This document shows, piece by piece, positions 4,003 to 22,198 of a stretch of 22,240 nucleotides of DNA; positions within the stretch are counted from its first letter, which is position 1, and the number at the start of each line of letters is the position of its first letter. A model generated the notes under the pieces. It did not search any database and had not been told where the DNA came from. It was given only the letters and a program-made list of their open reading frames with translations. The translations under genes and the position numbers were made by a program. Where the stretch lies: IMG/VR virus record IMGVR_UViG_3300010885_033367, positions 1 to 22,240 of that record; one strand, given 5' to 3'. This DNA is from a virus.

Positions 4003-5378
4003 GTTCCTCCAGGGTAAAGCCCCTGATACGATTTAATCCACGAGGTTCCAGTCCATTCATATTGTATTTCTGTAGTGATATTTGTAACATACTGTATATT
4101 ATCTGGGCTTGATGTGTGGTCAAAAGAAATAATCCAACTGACTCCATCATATTCTACAATGTCGTTGGCACTGGCCACCAACGGTTCGTTATTGAGTCCT
4201 GCCCAGGCTTCTGCATACCCATCATCCCATGAACCAGTAGCTTCGGTAAACAGATATCGTTGCCCGGTAACCGCGGCAGCCAAGCCAGCACCTGGGCCAC
4301 TGCGTAACGGATCAATAACGGCCAACACCGGTGATAGTGTATTGCCAGGAACTGACGCTGGATCTACAGTGAACAATAAAAATCTATCATCAGTAGGATC
4401 ATAGCTTACATGACCTATCACTTCTGAGCCATCATCTTGTTCTAGTTTAATAAAACTAATTCCGTCTCTTAGTGTGCCATACATGCCTACTACGTTATGC
4501 CATAACAAATTGCTTTCTGGACTGTCTGGCGGAGTTAAACTGTCATTGGGCTGGTCCACTACCTGTTGTTCTCGCAATGCTTGTAACTTGCCACCAATCA
4601 ACAACACTTGGTAACCATATGGTGTAATATTTTGACGAGTGCCCAACAATAGATCATTGTCAAGTATGGCATTACTAGCGTCGCCGTTGGCATCAAACAC
4701 ACTGGCAATAATACGTTCAACCACGCCCAACTTCTTGACCTTGGCTGGACTTGAAATCCAAATCGGTATGTTAAATGTTAAGGTAGCTATGTCAATTGGA
4801 TTGTCCGGGCCCACTGGAATGTTACGACTACTCCACTTTACACTGTCAAGATTGCACACAGTAAGACTGGTCCAGTCTATGTAGTTGTCGGTGCTTTGAA
4901 TTTCTAAACTGGGGTTAAACAACACCAAAATTTGCTCTAGGATCTGCATTTTTTGATTGGTGTTACTGGTCCAGATATCCAATGCTAAGGTCAGTTTGTA
5001 CGGCACTGGCATCAATCTTTCAATGGTAAATGCATTGCCTTGTGTGGTTTCATAACTGTCAGTGGCTTCGTCGTAAGTGCGTTGCCGAACTTGCATGTTG
5101 CTTACAAAATTGGGTTCTTGTATTCTAGGACGATCGTAGTCAAGACTTGTAATATAAAATGTCATCAACGGTGTGCTGGGCATGTCGTTGGCTGAGTTTT
5201 GTTGTATAATTGTTTGGGCTTGACGGCTAGCATCTCCGTAACGCACTGGCACACGAACCAGCGTGTCATTTTTGCCAGCTTGATTAATACCATACTCAAC
5301 TTGAAAGTTACTGAAGATTCTAGCAAACTGTAGTAGGAAGCGACGAATTTGTTCATCGTAAAAAAATTGAGTAGCCAT
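3984..5378 (-). CDS. 15: Tail completion / sheath stabiliser protein, T4 gp15-like
   Basis: The protein has 464 residues, against 272 in T4 gp15. The N-terminal half carries the family signature: MATQFFYDEQIRRFLLQFAR, then FSNFQVEY, RVPVRYGD, and later LTLALDIWTSN and FNPSLEIQSTDNYIDWTS. T4 gp15 has the corresponding RRY...FSNIQI, RVPITY and FNTTM segments. In T4 this protein forms a ring at the top of the tail tube and sheath, ends tail growth and joins tail to neck. The C-terminal ~200 residues are an extension absent from T4. They contain GPGAGLAAAVTGQRYLF, EAWAGL and two W-rich beta segments, as in cyanophage homologues. The ATG overlaps the gp14-like stop by one base (TAATG), with AGGA just upstream. 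The gene order 14-15 matches T4. Confidence 0.85.
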   Translation of the reverse strand: MATQFFYDEQIRRFLLQFARIFSNFQVEYGINQAGKNDTLVRVPVRYGDASRQAQTIIQQNSANDMPSTPLMTFYITSLDYDRPRIQEPNFVSNMQVRQRTYDEATDSYETTQGNAFTIERLMPVPYKLTLALDIWTSNTNQKMQILEQILVLFNPSLEIQSTDNYIDWTSLTVCNLDSVKWSSRNIPVGPDNPIDIATLTFNIPIWISSPAKVKKLGVVERIIASVFDANGDASNAILDNDLLLGTRQNITPYGYQVLLIGGKLQALREQQVVDQPNDSLTPPDSPESNLLWHNVVGMYGTLRDGISFIKLEQDDGSEVIGHVSYDPTDDRFLLFTVDPASVPGNTLSPVLAVIDPLRSGPGAGLAAAVTGQRYLFTEATGSWDDGYAEAWAGLNNEPLVASANDIVEYDGVSWIISFDHTSSPDNIQYVTNITTEIQYEWTGTSWIKSYQGLYPGGTWTLVL

Positions 5379-6727
5379 TATCGTCCTGGAGGTCTTGGGT
5401 TAGGTGGTAAGTTGCCACCCTGGTCACCGTTGTCGGCTTGTGGTTTGAGTATTTGACTTAAACTTTGACGACTAGGTATGTTGCCCAAGTCAGTAGTAGG
5501 CACAGTGTAAGTGTTGTTGACAAAGCTAGCACGTTGAGTTAATGCCCCTTGCGCCAGGTCAAGATCTGTTCTTACGTTGTCCTCAACTTTGATCCAGGCA
5601 CGGCCGCTGTAACGGAACAAGCGATTAGGGAAATAATCTAACCTTAACGCATAATCGCCAGCCGCTGGATTAGGAGGAAAACTTACACCAGGAGTCACTG
5701 GCAATCCGTTAGGCGCATACTGATCTCCTGTGAGATACCCCATGGTATAACCAAAACTAGTAGGACTGTTGCCTGTGCCGCCTTGTGTACCATCCACAGT
5801 GGGATAAGTATCGTCGGCTGTAATTCCAGCACCCGCCGGCTGACCCAGATTAGTAGGCAAGATATAAAATTTTGTAACGTCGTATCCACTCAGTGGCACA
5901 TCCGCTTGAGCCTGTACCAACAAGGCATCATTGATTTCTAAATCTTTAGGACGAGTCGATTGATTATCACCAACAGTGGATGGGTTGGTAATGACAGTCC
6001 AATAAGAGGTGTCGGTAATATCAGCGCCAGCAGGTACATTTTGTGCGGCTTGATAATAGGTGTTGCCATAGTTAACAACAGTACCAGACGGATAAAAATT
6101 TCCGTTGTCCCAAATATTTTCAGGCATAAATGGCTGATCAATAATCTGACTAAACTCTTGAGCATTGACCATGGGTGTGGCTTTGATTCGCCACAGATGC
6201 GGCAACCAAGTTTGACTAAATCCTTCTGACGCATAATTGCCATCTTGGATGACATAATATCTTGGCAGTGCTTTAGGAATAGCTCGGTTAAGTGGATGAT
6301 AATCAGTTAAGTTTGGCACTTCAATCACATCACCGCTCATTAATTTGCGACCAAATGTGTCAATCATGTCATTGTAATGAAATGTAATAAACAGTGTATC
6401 GTTGTTTAAGAATAGGCCAAACTGTGTTAGATCAAAATCAACATCTTGTGTACGATAAACACCGCGCATGACATACACATCTGGATCATATGCACGGTCT
6501 CGATTTTCCAACAACAATAAATCTTCAATAAACAACGGGTTAGTGGTGTCGTATATAGGAAGTGTAGCATCACCTGGGTTATTGGCCTGATCTGGATCAA
6601 CAATGGGTCCGAGATACTTATGGACGTAAATATCAAGTCCGCCAACTGTGTACATTTCGGATATGGTACGATCCAAAAATTGGTAATCATTGGTTCTATT
6701 AGGGCGATAGAGCGATAAGCGTGGCAT
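5378..6727 (-). CDS. 14: Neck protein, T4 gp14-like
   Basis: The protein begins MPRLSLYRPNRTNDYQFLDR and contains TNPLFIEDLLLLENRDRAYD, PDVYVMRGVY, DFDLTQFGLF and GRKLMSGDVIE, the recognisable gp14 family core. T4 gp14 (256 residues) forms the neck with gp13 and joins the filled head to the tail. This protein is about 449 residues because of a later insertion. Residues ~208-248 (counted from the upstream ATG at 6733) form a small chitin/carbohydrate-binding-like module ending in YW, followed by a glycine-rich stretch and a second beta domain. The C-terminus is proline-rich. Two ATGs are possible, at 6733 and 6727. I prefer 6727 because family members usually start MPRL and because a late box (CTAAATA, 6741-6735) would place the transcript start there. 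No Shine-Dalgarno sequence is visible. Confidence 0.88.
   Translation of the reverse strand: MPRLSLYRPNRTNDYQFLDRTISEMYTVGGLDIYVHKYLGPIVDPDQANNPGDATLPIYDTTNPLFIEDLLLLENRDRAYDPDVYVMRGVYRTQDVDFDLTQFGLFLNNDTLFITFHYNDMIDTFGRKLMSGDVIEVPNLTDYHPLNRAIPKALPRYYVIQDGNYASEGFSQTWLPHLWRIKATPMVNAQEFSQIIDQPFMPENIWDNGNFYPSGTVVNYGNTYYQAAQNVPAGADITDTSYWTVITNPSTVGDNQSTRPKDLEINDALLVQAQADVPLSGYDVTKFYILPTNLGQPAGAGITADDTYPTVDGTQGGTGNSPTSFGYTMGYLTGDQYAPNGLPVTPGVSFPPNPAAGDYALRLDYFPNRLFRYSGRAWIKVEDNVRTDLDLAQGALTQRASFVNNTYTVPTTDLGNIPSRQSLSQILKPQADNGDQGGNLPPNPRPPGR
5990..6112 (-). other. Carbohydrate-binding-like module inside gp14
   Basis: About 41 residues with the pattern WDNGNFYPSGTVVNYGNTYY, then P.......YWTVI. This matches the small aromatic ChiA/B-type (CBM5/12-like) repeat: Y..G..V.Y.G..Y, a P-rich turn, then YW. 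A similar module sits in the tail sheath (12950-13110). Carbohydrate binding is inferred from the family pattern and not shown. Confidence 0.5.
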
Positions 6728-6734
6728 AGTCATG

Positions 6735-6741
6735 TATTTAG
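6735..6741 (-). promoter_or_regulatory. Late promoter box (CTAAATA) for the gp14-gp15-Nudix operon
   Basis: On the minus strand, GCTAAATAC lies directly before the gp14 start codons. With the spacing of T4 late promoters (start about six bases after the box), transcription would begin at or next to ATG 6727. It is back-to-back with the sigma70-like promoter at 6750-6778. Confidence 0.55.
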
Positions 6742-6749
6742 CGGTTAGA

Positions 6750-6778
6750 TTGACTTGAAAATCAAAAGCCAGTATAAT
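6750..6778 (+). promoter_or_regulatory. Sigma70-type promoter, TTGACT-17-TATAAT
   Basis: The -35 box TTGACT (6750-6755) and the perfect -10 box TATAAT (6773-6778) are separated by 17 bases. The ATG at 6785 is seven bases after the -10 box, which is where transcription should start. The mRNA would be leaderless. No Shine-Dalgarno sequence is present. Confidence 0.8.
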
Positions 6779-6784
6779 TACAAA

Positions 6785-7036
6785 ATGGACGAATTATTTC
6801 AACGACTAGATAGTGCAGAACGTGCTATTGCCGCTGTTAAAAACAAGGTAGCTCGCAAAGATCTACTTAAAATGACACGGGCTGTGGATCAAGCCATTGT
6901 GGCTGCAGATATGGAAAGTGTAGAATGTCGTAGACTCAAACGAGAAACCGCACGTTATCAAGAATTGGTCCAAACAGTAAAAGATAGACTTACAAATTTA
7001 GAACAACACATAACCTTTGCCAACCTACTTGGTTGA
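6785..7036 (+). CDS. Small coiled-coil protein, unknown function
   Basis: The protein has 83 residues from ATG 6785 (MDELFQRLDSAERAI). A TTG further upstream lies inside the promoter and is rejected. The whole protein is predicted helical by eye, with heptad-like leucines and many charged residues (LKRETARY, VKDRLTNLEQHI). A short coiled-coil oligomer is likely. I do not recognise a family. It is driven by its own strong host-type promoter, unlike the structural genes, so it may be expressed early. Its 3' end overlaps the -35 box of the next gene (the TGA stop lies inside TTGACC). Confidence 0.7.
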   Translation: MDELFQRLDSAERAIAAVKNKVARKDLLKMTRAVDQAIVAADMESVECRRLKRETARYQELVQTVKDRLTNLEQHITFANLLG

Positions 7037-7061
7037 CCTTACTTGAACTTTACTATACAAT
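7033..7061 (+). promoter_or_regulatory. Sigma70-type promoter, TTGACC-17-TACAAT
   Basis: TTGACC (7033-7038) overlaps the stop of the preceding gene. TACAAT (7056-7061) follows after 17 bases, and ATG 7069 comes eight bases after the -10 box. The predicted transcript is leaderless, like those at 6785 and 9062. Confidence 0.65.
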
Positions 7062-7068
7062 AAAGACT

Positions 7069-8214
7069 ATGGCTAAACTAAACGAAATCAAAAGATTAAA
7101 CCCCAAGGGTGCTGAAACCAAATACATAGGGTTTGAACCTGAATGGAAATTCCAACCTACAGAGGAAAATCGAGTCAGCAGTTTTGCCAATGCGTTTCAC
7201 TGGTACAACTATCACTATGGCAAAAAAGACGCCAAAGATATGCTATGTCATTATCTTGAACACAACGGCCGTAAGGCGGATGCTAAAACTATGCGTGGCA
7301 TTCCGGACAGCCAAATTCGTCTCACTCCGGCCTGGGTGTGTCGTATGACCCTACTTGGACTGGAATTAAAAGAACACGAACAGTGCAACATTGACGAGCA
7401 AATTTCAACCATGCTCAAGGCCAAACAAGAAATTAAACGAGCACAAAGTGAAGTTGATGCCGACACCGCTGTGGCAAAACTTACAATCCAAGATCATTTG
7501 CGTGAAAAAGTAAGTGAGTGTTGTGGAGAAATGGAGGCCATGTTTGATGACTTTATTGACGCTGGCGCAAAAATGAGTGCGGACTTCAGCCCAATCAAAC
7601 TCATGCGTGGTATGAACATCAGCCCCAATATGATTAGTACCGTGAGTCGGGTATGGGAATTGCGCTTGGCTGAATTTACAGAAGTGCTAGAAGGCAAAGA
7701 TGATCAGCTGGTCGAAGGTTATAGTCACCTTTCAAAACTACAACTTCGTAACTGTGTAAAATTCTGTGAAACAGTAATCAACGACTGCAACAGTTATGTT
7801 CAACTTAAAAAAGTAGAACGCAAACCACGTGCCAAGAAAGCAGTGAGCCCAGAAAAATTAACTCGCAAATTCAAGTTTATGAAGGAATTTGACGAGCTTA
7901 AACTCAAATCAGAATCAGTTACCAAACTGGTTGGCGCCACGGAAGCCTGGTTGTACGACACAGCAAAACGCAAACTTATCCATGTCATGGCAGACAGTCA
8001 TATTGGTACCTTTACTGTAAAAGGCAGTGCAATTGCTGGGTTTGATACTCTGGCAACTGTACAAAAAACACTACGCAAACCTGCTGAGCAGATCAAAGCA
8101 GTTACAGGCGGAGGTAAACCAGCAGCTCGCAAAGCATTTGCAGAAATTAAGGCCACAGAAACTAAATTTAACGGCCGCGGCAACGATAACTTGATTATAC
8201 TCTGGGCTTGGTAA
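7069..8214 (+). CDS. Unknown 381-residue helical protein
   Basis: It starts at ATG 7069 (MAKLNEIKRLNPKGAE). An upstream TTG at 7033 lies in the promoter's -35 box and is rejected. The protein is largely helical and charged. Residues ~10-120 contain aromatic motifs (YIGFEPEW, FHWYNYHYG) and RLTPAWVCRM. Residues ~150-240 are amphipathic helices. A basic linker (KVERKPRAKKAV, ~247-258) leads to a compact C-terminal domain with WLYDTAKRKLIHVMAD, TFTVKGSAIAGFD and an ILWAW end. This kind of protein occurs in T4-like marine phages, but I know no function for it. The basic linker is compatible with nucleic-acid contact. It is transcribed from a host-type promoter, so early or middle expression is inferred. 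Confidence 0.8.
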   Translation: MAKLNEIKRLNPKGAETKYIGFEPEWKFQPTEENRVSSFANAFHWYNYHYGKKDAKDMLCHYLEHNGRKADAKTMRGIPDSQIRLTPAWVCRMTLLGLELKEHEQCNIDEQISTMLKAKQEIKRAQSEVDADTAVAKLTIQDHLREKVSECCGEMEAMFDDFIDAGAKMSADFSPIKLMRGMNISPNMISTVSRVWELRLAEFTEVLEGKDDQLVEGYSHLSKLQLRNCVKFCETVINDCNSYVQLKKVERKPRAKKAVSPEKLTRKFKFMKEFDELKLKSESVTKLVGATEAWLYDTAKRKLIHVMADSHIGTFTVKGSAIAGFDTLATVQKTLRKPAEQIKAVTGGGKPAARKAFAEIKATETKFNGRGNDNLIILWAW

Positions 8215-8217
8215 ACT

Positions 8218-8225
8218 ACTAAATA
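8218..8225 (+). promoter_or_regulatory. Late promoter box (ACTAAATA) before gp13
   Basis: ACTAAATA lies four bases after the stop of the 381-residue gene and 23 bases before the gp13-like ATG at 8249. The short leader contains a small hairpin and the ribosome site. Confidence 0.6.
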
Positions 8226-8248
8226 CAGGGAACACGGAGCTCCCTTAC

Positions 8249-9019
8249 ATGGCCTTAGAAAATCAATCCAGCTTAGATACATTAAAACAAAATCTTATCG
8301 ATTATGTACGTCTACAACTAGGCGATCAAATTGTTGATATCGAGCTAGATGCTGAGCACTACGAAGCGGCCTATCAGCGTACCATTGGTGTATATCGCCA
8401 GCGAGCACAAAACGCCTACGAAGAAAGTTACATCTTTATGGAGTTGGTGACCAACGTTAACATCTACGACTTGCCACAAGAAGTACAAACAGTTAGACAA
8501 ATTTTCCGTAGAACCTTTGGCGACTCAACTGGTCCGTTTGCGTCAAACTTTGATCCGTTTAGTCAAGCAAGTATGAACGTGTACCTGATGAACTTCAACG
8601 TAGCCGGTGGTCTTGCTACCTATGACTTCTATTCACAATATGTAGAACTAGCCGGCCGTATGTTTGGCGCCTACATGAACTATACTTGGAATCCTGTGAC
8701 CAAGAAACTGCAACTGATCCGCGATCCTAAGGGCACTGGAGAATCAGTTCTACTTTGGTGCTATAATCTCAAACCTGAATTTAATCTCCTAAACGATTTT
8801 CAAATTGTACAATGGATCCGCGATTACATGACTGCTAGTTGTAAATTGATCATTGGCGAAGCACGTGAAAAATTTGGTACAATTGCTGGCCCACAAGGTG
8901 GCGGTACCCTAAATGGCACAGCCATGAAATCTGAAGCACAAATCAGTATGGACAAATTGGTTGACGAGCTCAAGAACTATGTAGATGGCAGCCAACCACT
9001 CAGCTGGGTAATTGGTTAA
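8249..9019 (+). CDS. 13: Neck protein, T4 gp13-like
   Basis: The protein has 256 residues, against 309 in T4 gp13. The N-terminus (TLKQNLIDYVRLQLGD, then DIELDAEHYEAAYQRTIGVY, then NAYEESYIFMEL) and the later NIYDLPQEVQTVRQIFRRTF are characteristic of gp13 and other head-tail neck proteins in T4-like phages. The C-terminal part is helical (IRDYMTASCKLIIGEAREKF) and ends ...SWVIG. In T4, gp13 and gp14 together close the filled head and form the tail docking site. Here it is on the opposite strand from gp14 and separated from it by two unrelated genes, unlike T4. It is preceded by a late box (8218) and a GGAG site (8236-8239). Confidence 0.87.
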   Translation: MALENQSSLDTLKQNLIDYVRLQLGDQIVDIELDAEHYEAAYQRTIGVYRQRAQNAYEESYIFMELVTNVNIYDLPQEVQTVRQIFRRTFGDSTGPFASNFDPFSQASMNVYLMNFNVAGGLATYDFYSQYVELAGRMFGAYMNYTWNPVTKKLQLIRDPKGTGESVLLWCYNLKPEFNLLNDFQIVQWIRDYMTASCKLIIGEAREKFGTIAGPQGGGTLNGTAMKSEAQISMDKLVDELKNYVDGSQPLSWVIG

Positions 9020-9026
9020 CACTCTC

Positions 9027-9055
9027 TAGACTTTTTTCTAAACTTATGCTATACT
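9027..9055 (+). promoter_or_regulatory. Sigma70-type promoter, TAGACT-17-TATACT
   Basis: TAGACT (9027-9032) and TATACT (9050-9055) are 17 bases apart. ATG 9062 follows the -10 box by seven bases, again predicting a leaderless transcript. It would drive the exonuclease-kinase pair. Confidence 0.65.
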
Positions 9056-9061
9056 CTTAGC

Positions 9062-9583
9062 ATGAGCTCATTAATGATTGACATAGAAGGTTTAGGAACA
9101 GGTCCCGATGCGACCATTTTAACCATTGCGGCTCAAAGTTTTGACCCGTTTAGTACAGGATACTATGCCCGCCAATACTATGCCCGCATCACCTTAGAAA
9201 GTCAAGAAAATCGTAACATCCAACAGGATACCATAGATTGGTGGGCCACTCAGCCTGAAGCACAAGCCGAAGCATTCATGGAAGAAGGTCGTGTTGATTT
9301 AGATGTGGCCTTGGACAGCCTATACAAGTTGGCTTGGCAACACAAATTTATCTGGGCCAATGGACCAACTTACGATATGAATATTTTGGAACACGCCTAC
9401 AAAAGTTATGGTAAAAGTTTACCTTGGCAGTTTTACAATGTGCGCGATGCTAGAACCATCTACAGCTTATGGCCCGAACTGCCCAAGCCACCCACAAGCC
9501 ACCATGCACTTGAAGATTGTCGTAGACAAATTGATATGTTACAGGCCACATTGAAACATTTAAACGTAAAGGAAATCAGATGA
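9062..9583 (+). CDS. DEDDh-type 3'-5' exonuclease, DexA-like
   Basis: The protein has 173 residues with the DEDDh signature: D7 and E9 in MIDIEGLG, D105 in GPTYDMNILEHAY, and H147/D152 in HHALED (HxAxxD). The intervening IDWWATQPEAQ matches the T.EWW..Q...A motif of T4 exonuclease A (DexA) and the RNase-T/Rv2179c-like group. These enzymes remove nucleotides from the 3' end of DNA or RNA with two metal ions. Whether the substrate is DNA or RNA cannot be told. The stop overlaps the ATG of the kinase gene (ATGA), so the two are coupled. The promoter is host-type with no leader, suggesting early or middle expression and a role in nucleic-acid turnover. Confidence 0.85.
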   Translation: MSSLMIDIEGLGTGPDATILTIAAQSFDPFSTGYYARQYYARITLESQENRNIQQDTIDWWATQPEAQAEAFMEEGRVDLDVALDSLYKLAWQHKFIWANGPTYDMNILEHAYKSYGKSLPWQFYNVRDARTIYSLWPELPKPPTSHHALEDCRRQIDMLQATLKHLNVKEIR

Positions 9584-10248
9584 TCATTGGTATTGCTGGG
9601 TTTCAAGGAAGCGGAAAAGATACTATTGCTGACTACTTACAAAACATCTACGGCTTTAAGCGTGATAGTTTTGCCAGCACACTTAAAGATGCTGTGAGTT
9701 CAGTATTTGGATGGGATCGTGAGTTGCTAGAAGGGCGCACAAAAGAAAGCCGTGCTTGGCGTGAACAAGTGGATGCATGGTGGAGTGAACGTTTGAACAT
9801 GCCCGATTTAACTCCCCGCTATGTGCTACAAGTATGGGGTACCGAAGTGGCTCGCAAGAGCTTCCACGATGATACTTGGATTGCTAGCCTGGAAAACAAA
9901 CTACGCAAAACAAACAACGATATTGTCATTAGTGATGTTCGTTTTCCTAATGAAATTGCAGCCATTAAACGTGCTGGCGGTGTAGTAATTCGTGTTACCC
10001 GTGGGCCGGAACCTGAATGGTACGATGCGGCATTGAGTGCAAATCGTGGGCCAGAAGGTAATATGACATGGGCATTAAGCCTGCAACAACTAGAAAGATC
10101 CAAAATTCATGCCAGCGAAACTGCCTGGATTGGTACTCAATTTGACGCAGTTATTGATAACAATGCTGACGGATTGGACAATCTCTACAGCCAAGTCAAA
10201 CGTCTGGTTCAAGATCTCCAGGTACCCAAGGGCGATCTAGCCGCTTGA
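9580..10248 (+). CDS. 1: Deoxynucleoside monophosphate kinase, T4 gene 1-like
   Basis: The protein has 222 residues, against 241 in T4 gp1. The P-loop is GFQGSGKDT (residues 7-15), followed by a helix and the FAS.LKDAV segment. DVRFPNE (about residues 119-125) and the preceding IVISD strand are typical of phage dNMP kinases. T4 gp1 phosphorylates dGMP, dTMP and hydroxymethyl-dCMP to diphosphates for DNA synthesis. Which bases this one accepts is unknown. RGPEPEWYDAAL is part of the lid region. It starts on ATGA overlapping the exonuclease stop. Together with the exonuclease it links breakdown of nucleic acid to nucleotide salvage. Transcription probably ends at the terminator at 10355-10384, inside the antisense HNH gene. 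Confidence 0.88.
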   Translation: MIIGIAGFQGSGKDTIADYLQNIYGFKRDSFASTLKDAVSSVFGWDRELLEGRTKESRAWREQVDAWWSERLNMPDLTPRYVLQVWGTEVARKSFHDDTWIASLENKLRKTNNDIVISDVRFPNEIAAIKRAGGVVIRVTRGPEPEWYDAALSANRGPEGNMTWALSLQQLERSKIHASETAWIGTQFDAVIDNNADGLDNLYSQVKRLVQDLQVPKGDLAA

Positions 10249-10543
10249 TCTCCTCTACACAATTTAGGCATATAGTTTTTAAATTGCGTAGTCCTGTGTT
10301 GTGTTGATTACCATCTACATGATAAACCAACAGTTGGCTAGCATATCTTGACCTAAACCCGCAACGATCACATGCGGGTTTTTTCTTATAACCTGCAGTT
10401 TTCCATCTTGCTTCTGGAATCTTAATCCCACGTTTTTTGGCAATACAATAGCCACACCGAGTTCTATAGTGTGGAACATCGTTACGATAGTAGTTTACAG
10501 CACTGGGTCTTTGTTTGCAACTTTGACAAATAGGGCGAATCAT
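10196..10543 (-). CDS. HNH-type zinc-finger nuclease-like protein
   Basis: The protein has 115 residues from the minus-strand ATG at 10543 (MIRPICQSCKQRPSAV). The longer frame from 10621 is rejected because it would read through promoter-like sequence. Four CxxC pairs are visible: CQSC, CGYC, CDRC and CLNC. The core YHVDGNQHNTGLRNL, then KTICLNC, is an HNH-like motif with H, D, N and the closing cysteines. Such small proteins are common in T4-like phages, either as free-standing homing-type nucleases or as regulators; activity is not shown. The 3' end overlaps the kinase gene by 53 bases on the opposite strand. A TATAAATA late box (10555-10548) lies immediately upstream, so the transcript may be nearly leaderless. 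Confidence 0.75.
   Translation of the reverse strand: MIRPICQSCKQRPSAVNYYRNDVPHYRTRCGYCIAKKRGIKIPEARWKTAGYKKKPACDRCGFRSRYASQLLVYHVDGNQHNTGLRNLKTICLNCVEEIKRLDRPWVPGDLEPDV
10355..10384 (+). terminator. Rho-independent terminator inside the antisense HNH gene
   Basis: AAACCCGCA (10355-10363) pairs with TGCGGGTTT (10373-10381), nine perfect pairs around a nine-base loop, and is followed by TTT to 10384. It acts for plus-strand transcripts leaving the kinase gene. On the minus strand the same bases encode KKPACDRCGF, a zinc-binding pair of the HNH protein. Confidence 0.8.
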
Positions 10544-10572
10544 GGTATATTTATAGAGAAAACCTTTGTCAA
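10544..10572 (-). promoter_or_regulatory. Promoter region of the HNH gene (TTGACA and TATAAATA)
   Basis: On the minus strand a perfect -35 box TTGACA (10572-10567) lies 17 bases before TATACC (10549-10544), which abuts the ATG. A perfect late box TATAAATA (10555-10548) overlaps this spacer. The late box fits the position of the ATG better, because a start from TATACC would fall inside the gene. Which one is used is open. Confidence 0.45.
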
Positions 10573-10606
10573 AGGCCTTAACAACTCCATTCTTTTTGTC
10601 TTTTAT

Positions 10607-10614
10607 TATAAATA
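10607..10614 (+). promoter_or_regulatory. Late promoter box (TATAAATA) of the tail sheath operon
   Basis: This is a perfect match to the T4 late consensus, 26 bases before the sheath ATG at 10641. AGGA lies at 10631-10634. It is the best late box in the window, in keeping with high demand for sheath protein. Confidence 0.8.
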
Positions 10615-10640
10615 TTAACAACTAGAAAAAAGGATTCACC

Positions 10641-13600
10641 ATGGCACTATTATCACCAGGCGTACAAGTTACAGTTGTTGACCAAAGTCAATATATTCCA
10701 GCTTCGGTCAACTCAGTCCCTTATATTTTACTCGCTACTGCCCAGAACAAAGTTTCCGGCACAGGAGTAGGCGTTGCTGCTGGAACACTACAGGCCAATG
10801 CTAACCGGGTATACCTGATTACCAGTCAACGTGATTTGTCGGCTACATATGGCGTACCATTCTTTTATAAAACCACAGCTGGCACACCGATCAACGGTTA
10901 CGAGCTGAACGAATACGGCTTATTGGCTGCTTACAGCGCATTAGGCATTACAAATCGTGCATATATTCAACGGGTCGATGTCGACTTGGCGGCACTTACA
11001 GCCAGCTTGGTTCGCCCAGTTGGCACTCCTCCTAACGGGACTTACTGGTTAGACACTGCCAGTAGTTTATGGGGATTGTTCCAATGGAACATTACCACAA
11101 ATGCATTTACCAATCAAATTCCATTGATAATCACAGACACAACACAGCTTGAAACAGATTCAACTGTGCCATTGCAAAGCATTGGATCCATTGGTGACTA
11201 CGCTATCACAGCAACCAACGTTAATAATCCTGGTTATTTTAAGCGTGGTGGCCCAACTACCAGTCAAACATCAGCTACAGACTTGTCTGACTATTATAAT
11301 ACCTGGGTAGAGGTTGGCAGCGACAATTGGAAAACAGCATGGCCTACAGTGCAAGGAACCTTGGCACCTGTTTCATTAACTGCTGCAAATACATTTTTTG
11401 TTAACGGTGAGCTAATTACCGTTCCTGCTAGCCCTAACAACACAGTACAAGGTGTCAGCAATGCCATTAACTCTGCTGCCATCACTGGTGTTTATTCTGC
11501 TTTTGTTGACGGCAAGTTACAAATTTATGCCAACAGCACAGCCGAAGCCGACGGTAGTACTGACTTGTCAAATGGTATTGTTGAAATTACTGTTGGAACC
11601 GGAACTGTATTGACTAATTTAGGAATTACTGGTGGTCAAACCTATCATGCTCCTGCATTTTTAGCTGCGCCAAATTACTCAGCACCACGTTGGAGAAGTA
11701 CCGATGATCAACCAGAACCAACTGGTTCAGTCTGGCAACGTACCAACAGTGTAAACTTAGGTGCCAACTTGTCAATGAAGAAATACAGCACAGTGCTAGG
11801 AACATATGTTCAACAAAGTTGTAACCTTTATTCCAATGATAGCACAGCCATTTATACACTAGATCCTTCAGGTGGCGGCAAAAACATTGTGGCTGGCACA
11901 ACCATTGCACTAACTAATCCTGAGTATAATACTCCTGCTACACTGGGACTTGAAATTTTTGAAAGATACTCAGCTGGAACAATGATAGTAACAGGTAACA
12001 CAACGTCTCCTGGTCCGTTTGTGAATGGCAACGAATTCACTATCAATGCAACTGTTCCTGGCCAAGCTGCACTTGGTGGTGCAGTAACTGCCACGTTGGC
12101 CGGAACCACAGTAGCAGACTTCCTCACAGCAGTCAGTGCCGCAGTTGGTGGCTCTACATTTGCATCTTATGTAACTGCCACAGTTGACAGTGCTGGTGCT
12201 ATTGTGTTTACTCACACCGCAGGCGGAGATATTGTATTAGACAATACCACTGGTACTCCGGTTAATACCGCAGGTTTTGTGCCAGTGATTGATGGTGATC
12301 CTGCTACGGAATTCTGCCGTGCTGGTGCAGATGGTTCTTTGATACTTAGCTATTGGGTAGGCACACCAACCTTTACTTACACAGCCAGTTCAACTGGGCC
12401 AGACCAAGATCCAGATACCGGAACTTACTGGTATTATTCAGCCACGACACAAGCTGATATTATGATTCAAAATAATGGCGCATGGGTTGGTTACCAAAAC
12501 GTAAGCAATGATGTACGCGGTGATAATTTAACTAATACCAATGCAACAGGACCTATATTCAGTACCACAGCTCCTACTACTCAAACCAATACATCGCAAA
12601 GTCCATTGGTATTCGGCGATCTGTGGATCGACACTAGTGATTTAGAAAACTATCCAGTGATCAATCGTTGGAGCAATGTAGACGGTTCAGATCAGTGGGT
12701 GCAGATCAACAACACTGACCAAACTACAGAAAACGGTATTGTTTTTGCAGATGCACGTTGGGCGCCTAACGGCACAACCAATCCAATCACAGACAATATT
12801 CCAACAATTAGCAGCTTGTTGACCAGTAACTATTTGGATCTCGATGCGCCAGAGCCTACATTGTATGCTCAAGGTACACTGTTGTGGAACACACGCAGAA
12901 GTGGATTCAATGTAAAATCATTTGAAAACAACTATTTTACCACTACTGATTTTAACGTAGACATTTATAGTTCCACAGCAGTATATACATACAATAGTTT
13001 TGTCAACTACAACGGTGTGATTTATGTTTGTACAGTTACACCTCCTGGTGCTGGATATCTACCTACCAACACCAACTATTGGGCTGCAATTGAAACTAAT
13101 ACTTGGATCACTGCCAGTGGTAATAAAAATGATGGTTCTCCATACATGGGACGCCAGGCTCAACGTAGTATTATTGTTGCAGCTCTTAAGAGTGGAATTG
13201 ATACCAGCGTTCTGGTTCGTGAAGAACAGCGTCAGTTCAACTTGATTGCTTGCCCTCAATATCCAGAGTTGATGCCTAACATGGTCGAACTTAACAATGA
13301 TCGTAAAAACACAGCATTTGTAATTGGCGATACTCCATTGCGTTTAGGCCCAGACAGTACAGATCTCACCGCGTGGCAGACCAACAACAGTGGTCTTGGA
13401 TTGCCAACCAATGATGGCTTGGCAAGTTCTGATACATACCTTGGTGTATTCTACCCTAGCTGTCAAACCACAGATTTGTCAGGTAGTCCAGTGGTACAAC
13501 CACCAAGCCACATGATGATCCGTACAATTATTCGTTCAGACGAAGTGTCCTATCCATGGTTAGCACCTGCTGGTACACGTCGAGGTGTAATTGACAATGC

Positions 13601-16355: not shown

Positions 16356-16802
16356 ATGGCCATGAACTACCGTCAAGGCGCTTATGCTGTAAAAAACACT
16401 GCCAAGTATGTGGGCCGTGGCACACCAAGATACAGATCCGGGTGGGAACTTACCTTTATGATGTTTTTAGATTCAAATGAAAATGTCCTACAATGGGCCA
16501 GCGAAAGTATCAGTATACCTTATCGCAATCCACTTACTGGCAAGCAAAGTGTTTATATTCCAGACTTTTTGGTAACCTATCGCGGCCCCAACAACACTAC
16601 AAAGGCCGAGCTGATAGAAATTAAACCCAAAAAACAAAGCGTACTTGAAAGCAAGGCAAGTGACCGTGACCGTGCTGTTGTAGCATTAAATTATGCCAAG
16701 TGGGATAGTGCAACCAAATGGGCCAAGAAAAATGGCCTTACCTTTCGTGTGATCAACGAAGATCAGATTTATCATCAAGGCAACAAAAAGACCGGTAAAT
16801 AG
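16356..16802 (+). CDS. 4: Head completion protein, T4 gp4-like
   Basis: The protein has 148 residues, about the same length as T4 gp4. The features RYRSGWELTFMMFLD, VLQWASESISIPY, VYIPDFLVTYRG and AELIEIKPKKQ are the gp4 pattern. E31, D70, E88 and K90 form a PD-(D/E)xK nuclease-like set. In T4 gp4 acts after packaging to make the head competent for tail joining. In T4, head completion at this step involves gp4, gp2 and the neck proteins. Two starts are possible (16356 and 16362); I keep the first. It follows the preceding gene by two bases, which suggests coupled translation. Confidence 0.82.
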   Translation: MAMNYRQGAYAVKNTAKYVGRGTPRYRSGWELTFMMFLDSNENVLQWASESISIPYRNPLTGKQSVYIPDFLVTYRGPNNTTKAELIEIKPKKQSVLESKASDRDRAVVALNYAKWDSATKWAKKNGLTFRVINEDQIYHQGNKKTGK

Positions 16803-16805
16803 GTC

Positions 16806-17306
16806 ATGACTCGTAAATTAGAATCTCTTTTCAATTTTCCGCCCACAGAAGAAAGTGCCCAGGACGAACCAGTCTTGACCACAGCAGAAACACAGGCCGC
16901 TATTGTAAAAATAGACGATACCCTTGACAAAATTGATGCCGCCCTGCCGGCCATCCGCAATTTAGACGCCAGCGATCGAGAACTAGACGACATTGCCGAC
17001 TTGGCCAAAGAAAGCTACCAAAATCTCAGCGATTTAGGGTTTAATGTAGACAGTCGCTATGCTAGTGAACTGTTTGCAGTGGCCAGTACCATGCTAGGCC
17101 ATGCACTCACAGCCAAAACAACCAAACTAAACAAGAAATTAAAAATGCTGGATCTACAGTTAAAAAAACTCAAACTAGATCAAGATGCGGCTAAAAATGC
17201 ACCTGAGGATGCTGTCCAGGTAGGCGAAGGGCAAGTTTTAAACACCCTAAGTCGTAACGATTTATTGGAACGCTTGATAAGTTCAAGAGACCAAAAAACT
17301 GAATAA
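16806..17306 (+). CDS. 16: Small terminase subunit, T4 gp16-like
   Basis: The protein has 166 residues, against 164 in T4 gp16. The C-terminal two thirds match the family layout. A helix with SDRELDDIADLAKESY is followed by DSRYASELFAVASTMLGHAL, then a long basic coiled coil (TAKTTKLNKKLKMLDLQLKK), then a C-terminal NTLSRNDLLERLI. T4 gp16 has the corresponding SPRHMEVFATLMGQM, KLHKDMKD and PTELMDEI segments. The small terminase recognises phage DNA and stimulates cutting and packaging by gp17. The large subunit (gp17) is not in this window. Its 16 neighbour is gp4 here, not 15 and 17 as in T4. A weak AGG lies just before the ATG, and coupling to gp4 is likely. Confidence 0.78.
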   Translation: MTRKLESLFNFPPTEESAQDEPVLTTAETQAAIVKIDDTLDKIDAALPAIRNLDASDRELDDIADLAKESYQNLSDLGFNVDSRYASELFAVASTMLGHALTAKTTKLNKKLKMLDLQLKKLKLDQDAAKNAPEDAVQVGEGQVLNTLSRNDLLERLISSRDQKTE

Positions 17307-20159: not shown

Positions 20160-20540
20160 GTGCGAGCCCGAGAGTTTATTGCCGAAGGTGGTAGAGGCGG
20201 AACCAGATCTGCTCCCAACCACGAATTTGAACAAGCACATCCAGGTCTAGTTGGTCCAGGCGGCCAAGGCGATGTGTATTGGGGCCGTTATTACGACCAT
20301 TATCGTGTATCAACATTGGCCGGAATGCATCCAGACGATATTGCTAAAATGGATGAAATTAACTTCTTTGGCAACTTGCCAATATTCAGTGCATACACTG
20401 AATATGACCGTAAAAAACTCAAGGCAATCATGAAAAAGCTTCGCATGAAGCCCACAGACTACATTGGTCCTGGCAGTCTTGAATCAACTGACACCAACCA
20501 CACCAGCCCAGTAACTGCGTTCAAGGGTTACGCAAAGTAA
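20160..20540 (+). CDS. Tagged paralogue 1: putative internal head protein (126 aa)
   Basis: It starts at GTG 20160, two bases after the previous stop. The start is fixed by its conserved N-terminus MRAREFIAE, shared with the genes at 21417 and 21812 and ending in the I.E site typical of T4 capsid-targeting peptides. The C-terminus HTSPVTAFKGYAK is also shared with the other two. Between the tags lies a segment with YDHYRVSTLAGM, then YTEYDRKKLKAIMKKLRMKP, corresponding in position to parts of its paralogues. The middle is much more divergent than the ends. Function unknown. I infer capsid packaging and removal of the first nine residues by the prohead protease. It is followed one base later by the hydrolase gene. 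Confidence 0.78.
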   Translation: MRAREFIAEGGRGGTRSAPNHEFEQAHPGLVGPGGQGDVYWGRYYDHYRVSTLAGMHPDDIAKMDEINFFGNLPIFSAYTEYDRKKLKAIMKKLRMKPTDYIGPGSLESTDTNHTSPVTAFKGYAK

Positions 20541-20541
20541 A

Positions 20542-21420
20542 ATGTGTATAATCATCGCCAAATACTTTGACGGTATTGGTTGGGCCGGCGCCAAAAATCG
20601 CGACCGTAACTATACTCCTGTGTTGGATTTTATTGAATCCGACGAAGACGGTGTTGAACGCATGATGATGCATGACGAGATTACCGGCTACAAAGAAGGC
20701 ATCAACAGCCACGGTATCAGTATCTTAAACACAAGTCTTGATGTGTACGATGATGAAAGTGAAGTCGAAGCAGGCACTGCCAAAGCAAGTCCTGATGGAA
20801 AAACTATTTCTGAAGCATTGTTGCAAGATACTGCACTTGCGGCAGCAAAAATCATTATCAAACGAAAAATGGGTGGGTTTACCATGGTGTTTGATCACGA
20901 CACCATGTATTTGATCGAAGCCAGTGACTGGGACGGTACCAAACCTTACAAATTTGTAGCCAAACGTATACCCAACGATCAATTGGTTGCTAGAACTAAT
21001 CACGGCGTTTGGTTGCCTGGTGCAGGATATCAACGTAAACCTGATAATCAAAGTGAAACACTCAGCAGAATCAGCAGTGAAACTAGATTGTTGTTGGCCG
21101 AGGCTGTGGTAGAAGCAGCTGAAGATCCAGAAGATTTAGTGGATGGCATGTGTCAAGTTTACATCAATGACTCCCAGCTAAATATAATGAGAACCAGCAC
21201 AGAAAAAAAGAAAATGCGGACTACTAGCCAGCAGTTATGTGTACCCAAGGAACGGACACTGTATTGCAGACCAGTTAGTAGTCATTCAAAATTTGATTTT
21301 TGGCGTCTTAATCGTCCCAATACCGGTGTATGGGTTGAGATATTGAGTAATCGTGCTTTATGGCAGAACACCCAAGGTGATCCTCCATTTGGTCAAATGA
21401 AACTGAAGGATGTAAAATGA
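20542..21420 (+). CDS. N-terminal-nucleophile hydrolase-like protein (C45/AAT-like)
   Basis: The protein has 292 residues and starts MCIIIAKYFDGIG. Removal of Met would expose Cys2 as the nucleophile. GAKNRDRNYTP (16-26) matches the N/G-R-D position of Ntn hydrolases (acyl-transferase, penicillin/bile-acid amidase and TANGO2-type proteins). YKEGINSHGISILNTSL (50-66) matches the conserved G.N..G.A... strand. MVFDHDTMYLIEASDW and LVARTNHGVWLPG (149-161) match later strands, with N153 and H154 in the TNH motif of the C45-like group. The family cleaves or forms amide bonds; the substrate here is unknown. It lies between putative internal-protein genes, overlaps the next ATG (ATGA) and has no capsid-targeting tag. 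It may be a virion-linked or host-modifying enzyme; this is inference. Confidence 0.7.
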   Translation: MCIIIAKYFDGIGWAGAKNRDRNYTPVLDFIESDEDGVERMMMHDEITGYKEGINSHGISILNTSLDVYDDESEVEAGTAKASPDGKTISEALLQDTALAAAKIIIKRKMGGFTMVFDHDTMYLIEASDWDGTKPYKFVAKRIPNDQLVARTNHGVWLPGAGYQRKPDNQSETLSRISSETRLLLAEAVVEAAEDPEDLVDGMCQVYINDSQLNIMRTSTEKKKMRTTSQQLCVPKERTLYCRPVSSHSKFDFWRLNRPNTGVWVEILSNRALWQNTQGDPPFGQMKLKDVK

Positions 21421-21815
21421 GAGCTCGTGATTTTGTAGCAGAGGCAAAGTTTGGATCAGCACAGGATGTGCCTGCCAACGCTAAAAAATTGCCAAATCAT
21501 CAGGCCACAGCTATCAAAGGTGCTATCAGCATGCCTGACATTAGCATGACCAAACAAGGCGGCAGTCCTTACACACAATGGCGTTTTGGTATTGCCATGG
21601 CTGGTGCGCCTGACTTTCCTACACCACCTGCTGGTGCGTTTGCTGGCGATCCGCTGTTGGCCACCTATACTGATGTAGACTTAGATATTATCAATGCCGC
21701 TGCCAAATCAGTTGGCGCTGGCCGCGTTACAAAATTAACAGACAATCGTAGCACTGAACACGAAGGTGTTTACAAAACAAGTCCAGTAAAAGGATTTAAA
21801 GGTTATCCAAGATGA
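21417..21815 (+). CDS. Tagged paralogue 2: putative internal head protein (132 aa)
   Basis: The ATG overlaps the hydrolase stop (ATGA). The N-terminus MRARDFVAEAK and the C-terminus KTSPVKGFKGYPR match the other two paralogues. The centre has YTQWRFGIAMAGAPDF, aligned with YDHYRVSTLAGM and YQTYRVGVALARA in its paralogues. It then has YTDVDLDIINAAAKSVGAG. Synonymous and non-synonymous differences at the tag DNA indicate protein-level conservation and not recent copying. It overlaps the next gene (ATGA). Packaging and cleavage after VAE are inferred from the T4 model. Confidence 0.78.
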   Translation: MRARDFVAEAKFGSAQDVPANAKKLPNHQATAIKGAISMPDISMTKQGGSPYTQWRFGIAMAGAPDFPTPPAGAFAGDPLLATYTDVDLDIINAAAKSVGAGRVTKLTDNRSTEHEGVYKTSPVKGFKGYPR

Positions 21816-22198
21816 GAGCCCGCGAGTTTATCACCGAAGAAAAAGCCCTGCCAGCTGATCAAGGCGACCCGTTGGCTTATGTATATAGGATAAACGGATT
21901 GTTCAGCAGCGATACCTATCAAACTTACCGAGTTGGTGTGGCCCTAGCCCGTGCCAGGAGCGATGCAGTAAAAGATGATGTGAATCCTTACATGTTGCCA
22001 TGGGACGACCAAGAAATATTTGGCGAGCACGGAGTTATAGCCGGAGTTGGTGAGGACGTCAGCAATCTTATAGATCAAGCCTTGCAAATGACCGACACTC
22101 CAGGTGGCAAACAATTAGTAGGTTCGGCTGCTAGCGAAGAACCTAAGTCTGTGGAAAAAACAAGTCCTGTAAAGGCATTTAAGGGTTACCCAAGGTAA
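21812..22198 (+). CDS. Tagged paralogue 3: putative internal head protein (128 aa)
   Basis: It starts at the ATG overlapping the previous stop. N-terminus MRAREFITEEK, C-terminus KTSPVKAFKGYPR. The centre has YQTYRVGVALARARSDAVKD, then a P/D-rich loop, then a helix VSNLIDQALQMTD. This is the same layout as its two paralogues, with little sequence identity between tags. The stop overlaps the start of the next gene (TAATG), so the whole cluster is translated from tightly coupled cistrons. Function unknown. Confidence 0.78.
   Translation: MRAREFITEEKALPADQGDPLAYVYRINGLFSSDTYQTYRVGVALARARSDAVKDDVNPYMLPWDDQEIFGEHGVIAGVGEDVSNLIDQALQMTDTPGGKQLVGSAASEEPKSVEKTSPVKAFKGYPR

Follow-up and report, generated by a model that had tools for sequence, protein, structure and literature searches.

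Promoters placed next to start codons suggest a leaderless branch of early and late genes in a T4-like phage lineage

Three genes in a 22,240-bp linear IMG/VR virus record (IMGVR_UViG_3300010885_033367; the whole stretch is referred to here as the window) are each preceded by a sigma70-like promoter lying only a few bases from the start codon, which raises the question of whether their transcripts begin on the AUG itself. By its gene content the window belongs to a T4-like myovirus, as it encodes a gp15 tail sheath stabiliser (PF16724), a gp14-type neck protein, tail sheath, tail tube and head closure proteins, together with a DexA-like exonuclease and a deoxynucleoside monophosphate (dNMP) kinase. 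A preliminary description of this DNA had proposed that the constant spacing of the three promoters was not due to chance, that the genes lacked Shine-Dalgarno (SD) sequences and that early or middle genes were read in a leaderless mode by the host RNA polymerase. According to our analysis, the three sites are probably (at a probability of about 0.8) host-read sigma70-type early or early/middle promoters starting on the AUG, and belong to a lineage-wide leaderless branch that would include late promoters.

Direct reading of the sequence and a promoter scan located all three promoters on the plus strand, exactly where they had been reported. The first one consists of TTGACT (6750-6755) and TATAAT (6773-6778) separated by 17 bp, with 6 nucleotides (nt) left before ATG 6785, and precedes an 83-amino-acid gene of unknown function (6785-7036, plus strand) whose product gave no match in PHROG or Pfam. 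In the second one, TTGACC (7033-7038) and TACAAT (7056-7061) are also 17 bp apart, 7 nt before ATG 7069 of a 381-amino-acid gene (7069-8214, plus strand; PHROG 11903, unknown function), and the -35 box includes the TGA stop codon of the 83-amino-acid gene. The third promoter, TAGACT (9027-9032), 17 bp and TATACT (9050-9055), ends 6 nt before ATG 9062 of the DexA-like 3'-5' exonuclease gene (9062-9583, plus strand; Pfam PF16473, PHROG 255) and has a weak -35 box and an extended -10 element, with TG at 9047-9048 (TGCTATACT). The A of the ATG is the 7th, 8th and 7th base past the -10 box at ATG 6785, 7069 and 9062 respectively, in agreement with the 7-8 bases originally described, and the first T of the -10 box falls at -12 or -13. 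No SD-like tetramer occurs upstream of these three ATGs, and a leaderless start is predicted for each gene.

Promoters were scored by consensus matches over the 12 hexamer positions, with cut-offs of at least 9/12 or at least 10/12, and the upstream regions of the window were subjected to 40 dinucleotide shuffles. A promoter of at least 9/12 was found 5-7 nt before the first ATG in three window genes, against a shuffle mean of 0.05 (maximum 1). The total of promoter-like sites, 52 against 41 +/- 6 in the shuffles, remained within about two standard deviations, so that the position of the promoters, not their number, exceeds chance.

Megablast of the window against 50,697 phage records returned no match, and a search of bacterial genomes with the 381-amino-acid protein retrieved nothing. 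On the basis of the neck and sheath proteins, the nearest cultured phages are the jumbo T4-like phages Atu_ph07, XaC1, PA5oct, Munch and CBB, with about 36-51% identity among the matches listed; uncultured relatives are plentiful, each protein query recovering at least 80 loci at 73-100% identity. The distinct upstream sequences of these relatives were aligned at the start codon. A TANNNT motif ended 6-7 nt before the ATG in 77 of the 78 sequences for the 83-amino-acid gene and in 58 of the 61 for the 381-amino-acid gene, and 5-6 nt before the exonuclease ATG in 54 of 55, while SD-like motifs occurred in 0/78, 1/61 and 0/55 sequences respectively. Among neighbouring genes, such motifs were present in 61/63 relatives for gp14, 74/87 for the dNMP kinase and 63/63 for gp18. 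The hexamers, of the TTGACA and TATAAT type and set 16-18 bp apart as in host sigma70 promoters, are retained across relatives while the spacers drift, and TTGAC at -35 is kept in the families of the 83- and 381-amino-acid genes; the latter has the leaderless arrangement in all five large relatives described below. In three loci (L040, L047 and L051) the 381-amino-acid protein bears an in-frame N-terminal extension, which supplies a new first ATG, once more 5-7 nt past the -10 box. In other loci (L139, L133, L183, L143 and others) a different gene lies upstream of the exonuclease, and both the extended -10 element and its distance from the ATG are unchanged.

The arrangement was then evaluated on a genomic scale in five large relatives (G001-G005, metagenomic contigs of 182-344 kb), in which genes were called as the longest ATG open reading frames (ORFs), the first ATG being taken as the start. 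In the window and four of these relatives, promoters of at least 9/12 ending 0 to 9 nt before the ATG numbered 7, 6, 6, 1, 1, 11, 39, 6, 2 and 1, against a background of about 1-4 per position both in shuffles and before internal ATGs; the distribution thus shows a peak at exactly 6 nt and troughs at 3-4 and 8-13 nt. This modal distance is the one that the textbook position of the -10 box, -12 to -7, would give with +1 on the A of the ATG. The preliminary description had suggested a count of -10-to-ATG distances against shuffled controls, and this count, extended to the window and all five relatives, returned 62 genes with a closely placed promoter against 9.0 +/- 2.8 in shuffles, a background of about one seventh. 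With the stricter cut-off of 10/12, promoters 5-7 nt before the ATG were found at 42 genes of the five relatives and two of the window, and only 1 of these 44 genes carries an SD motif, compared with about 40-45% of the other genes of the large relatives. The same test returned no genes in T4, none in Salmonella phage Munch and one in PA5oct. Promoters of T4 and Munch lie mostly 25-34 nt before the ATG, a mode that is present in this lineage too. Moreover, a pyrimidine occupies position -1 in 44 of 52 leaderless genes against 675 of 1431 other genes (p = 5e-8), which a pyrimidine-purine (YR) initiator placed at the A of the ATG would produce and which provides indirect support for a 5' end at the start codon. 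The spacing is conserved and genome-wide in the lineage, which supports the proposal of the preliminary description that its constancy is not due to chance.

The sigma-type genes fall into 36 families, 17 of which have two or more members across genomes. Among these 17, those of known function comprise a primase, an SbcD-like nuclease, a 5'-3' exonuclease, the UvdE endonuclease, a phosphoribosyl transferase and the DexA-like exonuclease. The suggestion that leaderless genes with sigma-type promoters belong to the early or middle class was borne out for the DexA-like enzyme, the primase, the SbcD-like nuclease, the 5'-3' exonuclease and UvdE.

It had also been proposed that structural genes use late boxes plus ribosome sites. 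This held for gp14, gp18 and gp19, which have a leader and an SD sequence: at the gp14 neck gene (8220-8249, plus strand) the late box TAAATA is followed by 23 nt, with the SD sequence GGAG, and the ATG, and at the gp18 tail sheath gene (10609-10641, plus strand) the interval is 26 nt and the SD sequence AAAAAAGGA. The division itself did not hold, since a similar number of late boxes lie 4-8 nt from the ATG of genes lacking an SD sequence, structural genes included. Scoring the late box by its T4 core sequence, TAAATA, we found it at 4-8 nt from the ATG in 103 of the 1481 genes of the five relatives, with peaks at 4, 5 and 7 nt and an SD motif in only four of them, against 7 of 3001 genes in eight other phages (PA5oct, Atu_ph07 over 400 of its 490 kb, Munch, T4, Cr30, phiM12, BUCT-ZZ01 and Ochrobactrum OC). 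Cr30, phiM12, Ochrobactrum OC and Atu_ph07, alphaproteobacterial T4-like phages, were chosen because leaderless gene expression occurs in some of their hosts, and showed no excess of this late-box spacing. A further peak at 17-30 nt is shared by T4 and this lineage; in the latter, an SD motif accompanies 80 of the 108 genes concerned. Close late boxes precede 59-92 per 1000 genes and 1.5-3.8 per 1000 internal ATGs, and the late class with the window included amounts to 104 genes against 8.8 +/- 2.9 in shuffles. This state was matched in 222 of 265 orthologue comparisons (84%) against a background of 36 of 2189 (1.6%). The class comprises 57 gene families, 27 with two or more members, and includes portal, tape-measure-like, baseplate-wedge-like and virion structural proteins. 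Early-type and late genes in leaderless position together account for 187 of 1510 genes, about 12%. A homologue of the late sigma factor gp55 was detected in all five relatives, which were the sequences searched (E-values 5e-8 to 6e-7); in G004 it lies near the gp47/SbcD-like gene.

The close late-box distances are bimodal, at 4-5 nt and 7-8 nt. In the 4-5 nt class the A of the ATG comes 5th or 6th past the box. In the 7-8 nt class the bases before the ATG are mostly ACT or ACC, with A at -3 in 25 of 30 and C at -2 in 23 of 30 genes at 7 nt, and if transcription began at that same 5th or 6th position, a leader of 3 nt would remain. The late class has two members in the window. A virion structural protein gene (5378-6727, minus strand; PHROG 11591) is preceded by a TAAATA box at 6735-6740 (minus strand), from which it would be read, 7 nt before ATG 6727, a distance conserved in 5 of 6 orthologues; its start is likely ATG 6727 with the 3-nt leader ACT, because the earlier ATG 6733 is only 1 nt past the box. 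The second gene (16806-17306, plus strand; PHROG 16202) has its box at 16796-16801 (plus strand), 4 nt before ATG 16806. A chance overlap of TAAATAG with a stop codon was considered here and rejected, as the box lies exactly 4 nt before the ATG in 6/6 orthologues with differing flanks.

Two sites of the lineage bring early-type and late elements together. Between 6735 and 6755 the minus-strand late box and the plus-strand early-type -35 box (6750) stand back to back, 9 bp apart, in the window as in most relatives, and the two programmes may be mutually exclusive there. In G005, the ATG of a glycosyltransferase-like gene (G005:C1:306488, L256:6488) is preceded both by an early-type promoter, 6 nt away, and by a late box, 8 nt away, which suggests two leaderless or near-leaderless mRNAs for a single gene.

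Taken together, the lineage has a leaderless branch, as judged from promoter position, beside a leader-plus-SD branch, in the early/middle programme as well as in the late one. In the mechanism that we infer, transcription of the early-type sites by host RNA polymerase would begin on the A of the AUG; at the late sites, the gp55-modified polymerase would begin either on that base or 3 nt before it. The ribosome would then bind the 5'-terminal AUG directly in a 70S-type initiation requiring no SD contact, and downstream genes of the same operons would rely on SD sequences. The exonuclease operon would provide an example, the first gene being leaderless and the overlapping dNMP kinase gene (9580-10248, plus strand), whose start overlaps the end of the exonuclease gene, being led by the SD sequence AAAGG.

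Other explanations were weighed against this one. Fortuitous resemblance of A+T-rich DNA to a loose consensus could account for the unexceptional promoter total of the window, and its probability is nonetheless negligible, being already refuted by the sites in fixed position (3 compared with 0.05 in the window, 62 against 9 in the six sequences) and by the 54-77 of 55-78 distinct relatives that have kept them. It is very improbable that the true start codons lie elsewhere and the mRNAs are ordinarily leadered. Starts were indeed taken as the first ATG, and the ORF list offers upstream TTG starts for two of the genes, but those frames cross the variable spacer, and protein similarity in the relatives begins at residue 1 (for the 83-amino-acid protein at 73-90% identity). 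The next in-frame ATGs lie 29 codons into the 83-amino-acid gene, 57 codons into the 381-amino-acid gene and 4 codons on in the exonuclease gene, all without an SD sequence, and the extended proteins of L040, L047 and L051 each have their own ATG at 5-7 nt from a -10 box. The promoters could also be real and translation proceed mainly from longer readthrough mRNAs of the late operon, by coupling or SD-independent initiation, the close spacing merely reflecting packing. The intergenic gaps of only 32-51 nt and the overlap of a -35 box with the preceding stop codon are in keeping with this idea, which we regard as improbable: it gives no account of the peak at exactly 6 nt, the troughs on either side, the loss of SD sequences and the pyrimidine at -1, and the peak is absent from the genomes of Munch, T4 and PA5oct, which are densely coded too.

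A more serious, albeit still unlikely, alternative concerns the polymerase, as the hexamers might be bound by a phage-encoded or middle-mode factor instead of unmodified host sigma70, and the genes might be middle rather than early. The exonuclease promoter, with its poor -35 box (TAGACT) and extended -10, would fit such a factor, as would the fact that DexA and dNMP kinase belong to the early/middle genes of T4. Conversely, the TTGAC box is conserved in the other two families, and an extended -10 element can serve host sigma70. This alternative alters the timing class and leaves the leaderless reading intact.

Some points weigh against start-codon transcription as the explanation of the three sites. 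All promoters are consensus matches and all starts are first ATGs, read from sequence; the five genomes are related, so that gene counts are not independent (36 sigma-type and 57 late families); efficient leaderless translation by the ribosomes of the host is assumed; and a strict rule of +1 on the A of the AUG misfits the 7-8 nt class of the bimodal late boxes. These limits bear on the counts more than on the conclusion, given the sharpness of the peaks, their conservation among orthologues and their absence from the control phages. A bolder proposal, which we put forward only tentatively and consider rather unlikely, is that of a translational regulon operating across the infection cycle, in which genes with a 0-nt or a quantised 3-nt ("ACY-AUG") leader would be translated differently from the SD class. 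Ribosomes would perhaps be altered by the phage-encoded ribosomal protein bS21 or by shifts in initiation factors, and the type of 5' end, not SD strength, would set protein ratios; no phage-encoded initiation factor 3 (IF3) was found as a cause of altered initiation.

The leaderless gene of phage lambda is cI, a single gene, and Thermus phage phiYS40, which has many leaderless transcripts, infects a phylum rich in leaderless genes. Our predicted genes resemble these in being phage genes that would be read from leaderless mRNA, a mode first found in lambda (PMC3160421). In the giant phage AR9, all leaders measure 26-491 nt (PMC5312081). Among cellular organisms, the closest likeness is to the TA-led genes of many bacteria, in which TANNNT precedes the start by about 12 bp (Zheng et al. 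2011, PMC3160421; Deinococcus-Thermus, PMC12340547). There the motif lies about 10-12 bp upstream, the SD sequence is lacking and a leaderless mRNA was inferred, and a first T at -12 corresponds to the 6-nt mode found here. In Deinococcus the -10 motif alone acts as a promoter that an added -35 box enhances (PMC12340547). The difference is that those are cellular genomes, whereas here T4-like phages have good -35 boxes and use T4-type late promoters likewise.

Compared with T4 (Straboviridae), the lineage shares TTGAC/TATAAT promoters, TATAAATA late boxes (here TATAAATA-like, with the TAAATA core), a gp55 homologue and homologous neck, sheath and sheath-stabiliser genes. In T4, however, sigma-type promoters lie 25-34 nt and late boxes 17-30 nt from the ATG, with SD sequences, and no gene is in leaderless position; the T4-like early layout is absent from the three window genes and present at other genes of the lineage. 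PA5oct has a homologue of the 381-amino-acid gene directly upstream of its neck gene, as in the window, and PA5oct, Atu_ph07 and Munch share the sheath and neck genes, but none of the three shows an excess of leaderless spacing with either type of promoter (late boxes of Atu_ph07 being covered over the portion given above). The open-access literature yielded no description of leaderless T4-type early or late promoters, subscription journals being outside the scope of the search. If our reading is true, the T4 programme, a textbook case of leaders and Shine-Dalgarno sites, can be rewired to leaderless translation in a common freshwater lineage, portal and baseplate-like genes included. The lineage would offer natural pairs of leaderless and SD-led genes sharing a promoter type, from which one could learn under what conditions, and for what reason, leaderless initiation is favoured, and gene finders that require an SD sequence will misplace such starts.

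Finally, we investigated the possible host. G004 and G005 carry a permuted transfer-messenger RNA (tmRNA; L240:14180-14640 in G004 and L257:3227-3631 in G005; Rfam RF01850/RF04321) matching the betaproteobacterial tmRNA family with E-values of 2e-33 and 3e-39 respectively. The predicted tag peptides of G005 and G004 are unusually long (AKASTGEVTVSGKSVKFSARTAKASLAV and AKTSTGETTVSGKNIKFSARTAQRQSLAV). Both contigs also encode a ClpX-like protein of about 400 amino acids followed directly by bS21 (L250:2417-3831 in G005, L233:13911-15331 in G004); the three other large contigs, possibly incomplete, gave no bS21. Phage bS21 matched 38 loci in bacterial assemblies, the best at 55-58% identity in Burkholderiales, Neisseriaceae and unclassified Proteobacteria bins, which is too distant for a host to be named. 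Because of the beta-type tmRNA and bS21, a betaproteobacterial host is likely for G004 and G005, and is assumed for the window. In Burkholderia cenocepacia, the transcript start coincides exactly with the start codon in 72 genes and falls within 10 nt of it in another 42, 24 of these being transfer RNAs (tRNAs) (PMC4603805). Leaderless transcripts are thus few in that species and, if it is typical of the host, the phage is not simply copying a leaderless-dominated host. Freshwater phages encoding bS21 have been described with predicted Bacteroidetes hosts, and their bS21 was proposed to bias late initiation to phage mRNA (PMC9723584). The present lineage resembles them in comprising large lake phages with bS21 and differs in its betaproteobacterial signs and in the occurrence of bS21 in only two of the five contigs.

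Further features were recorded during annotation. A stretch of about 7 kb in G005 (L257:10262-17602) holds a cluster of over 25 tRNA genes. In the window, a strong sigma70-like site, TTGACA-17-TATATT with an extended -10 (10523-10551, plus strand), lies inside an HNH endonuclease-like ORF (10196-10621, minus strand) flanked by the genes for dNMP kinase and tail sheath. Three neighbouring small genes (20160-20540, 21417-21815 and 21812-22198) apparently form a paralogous family, with a common N-terminus (MRARE/DFI/VxE) and a common C-terminus (SPVxAFKGYP/A or similar).

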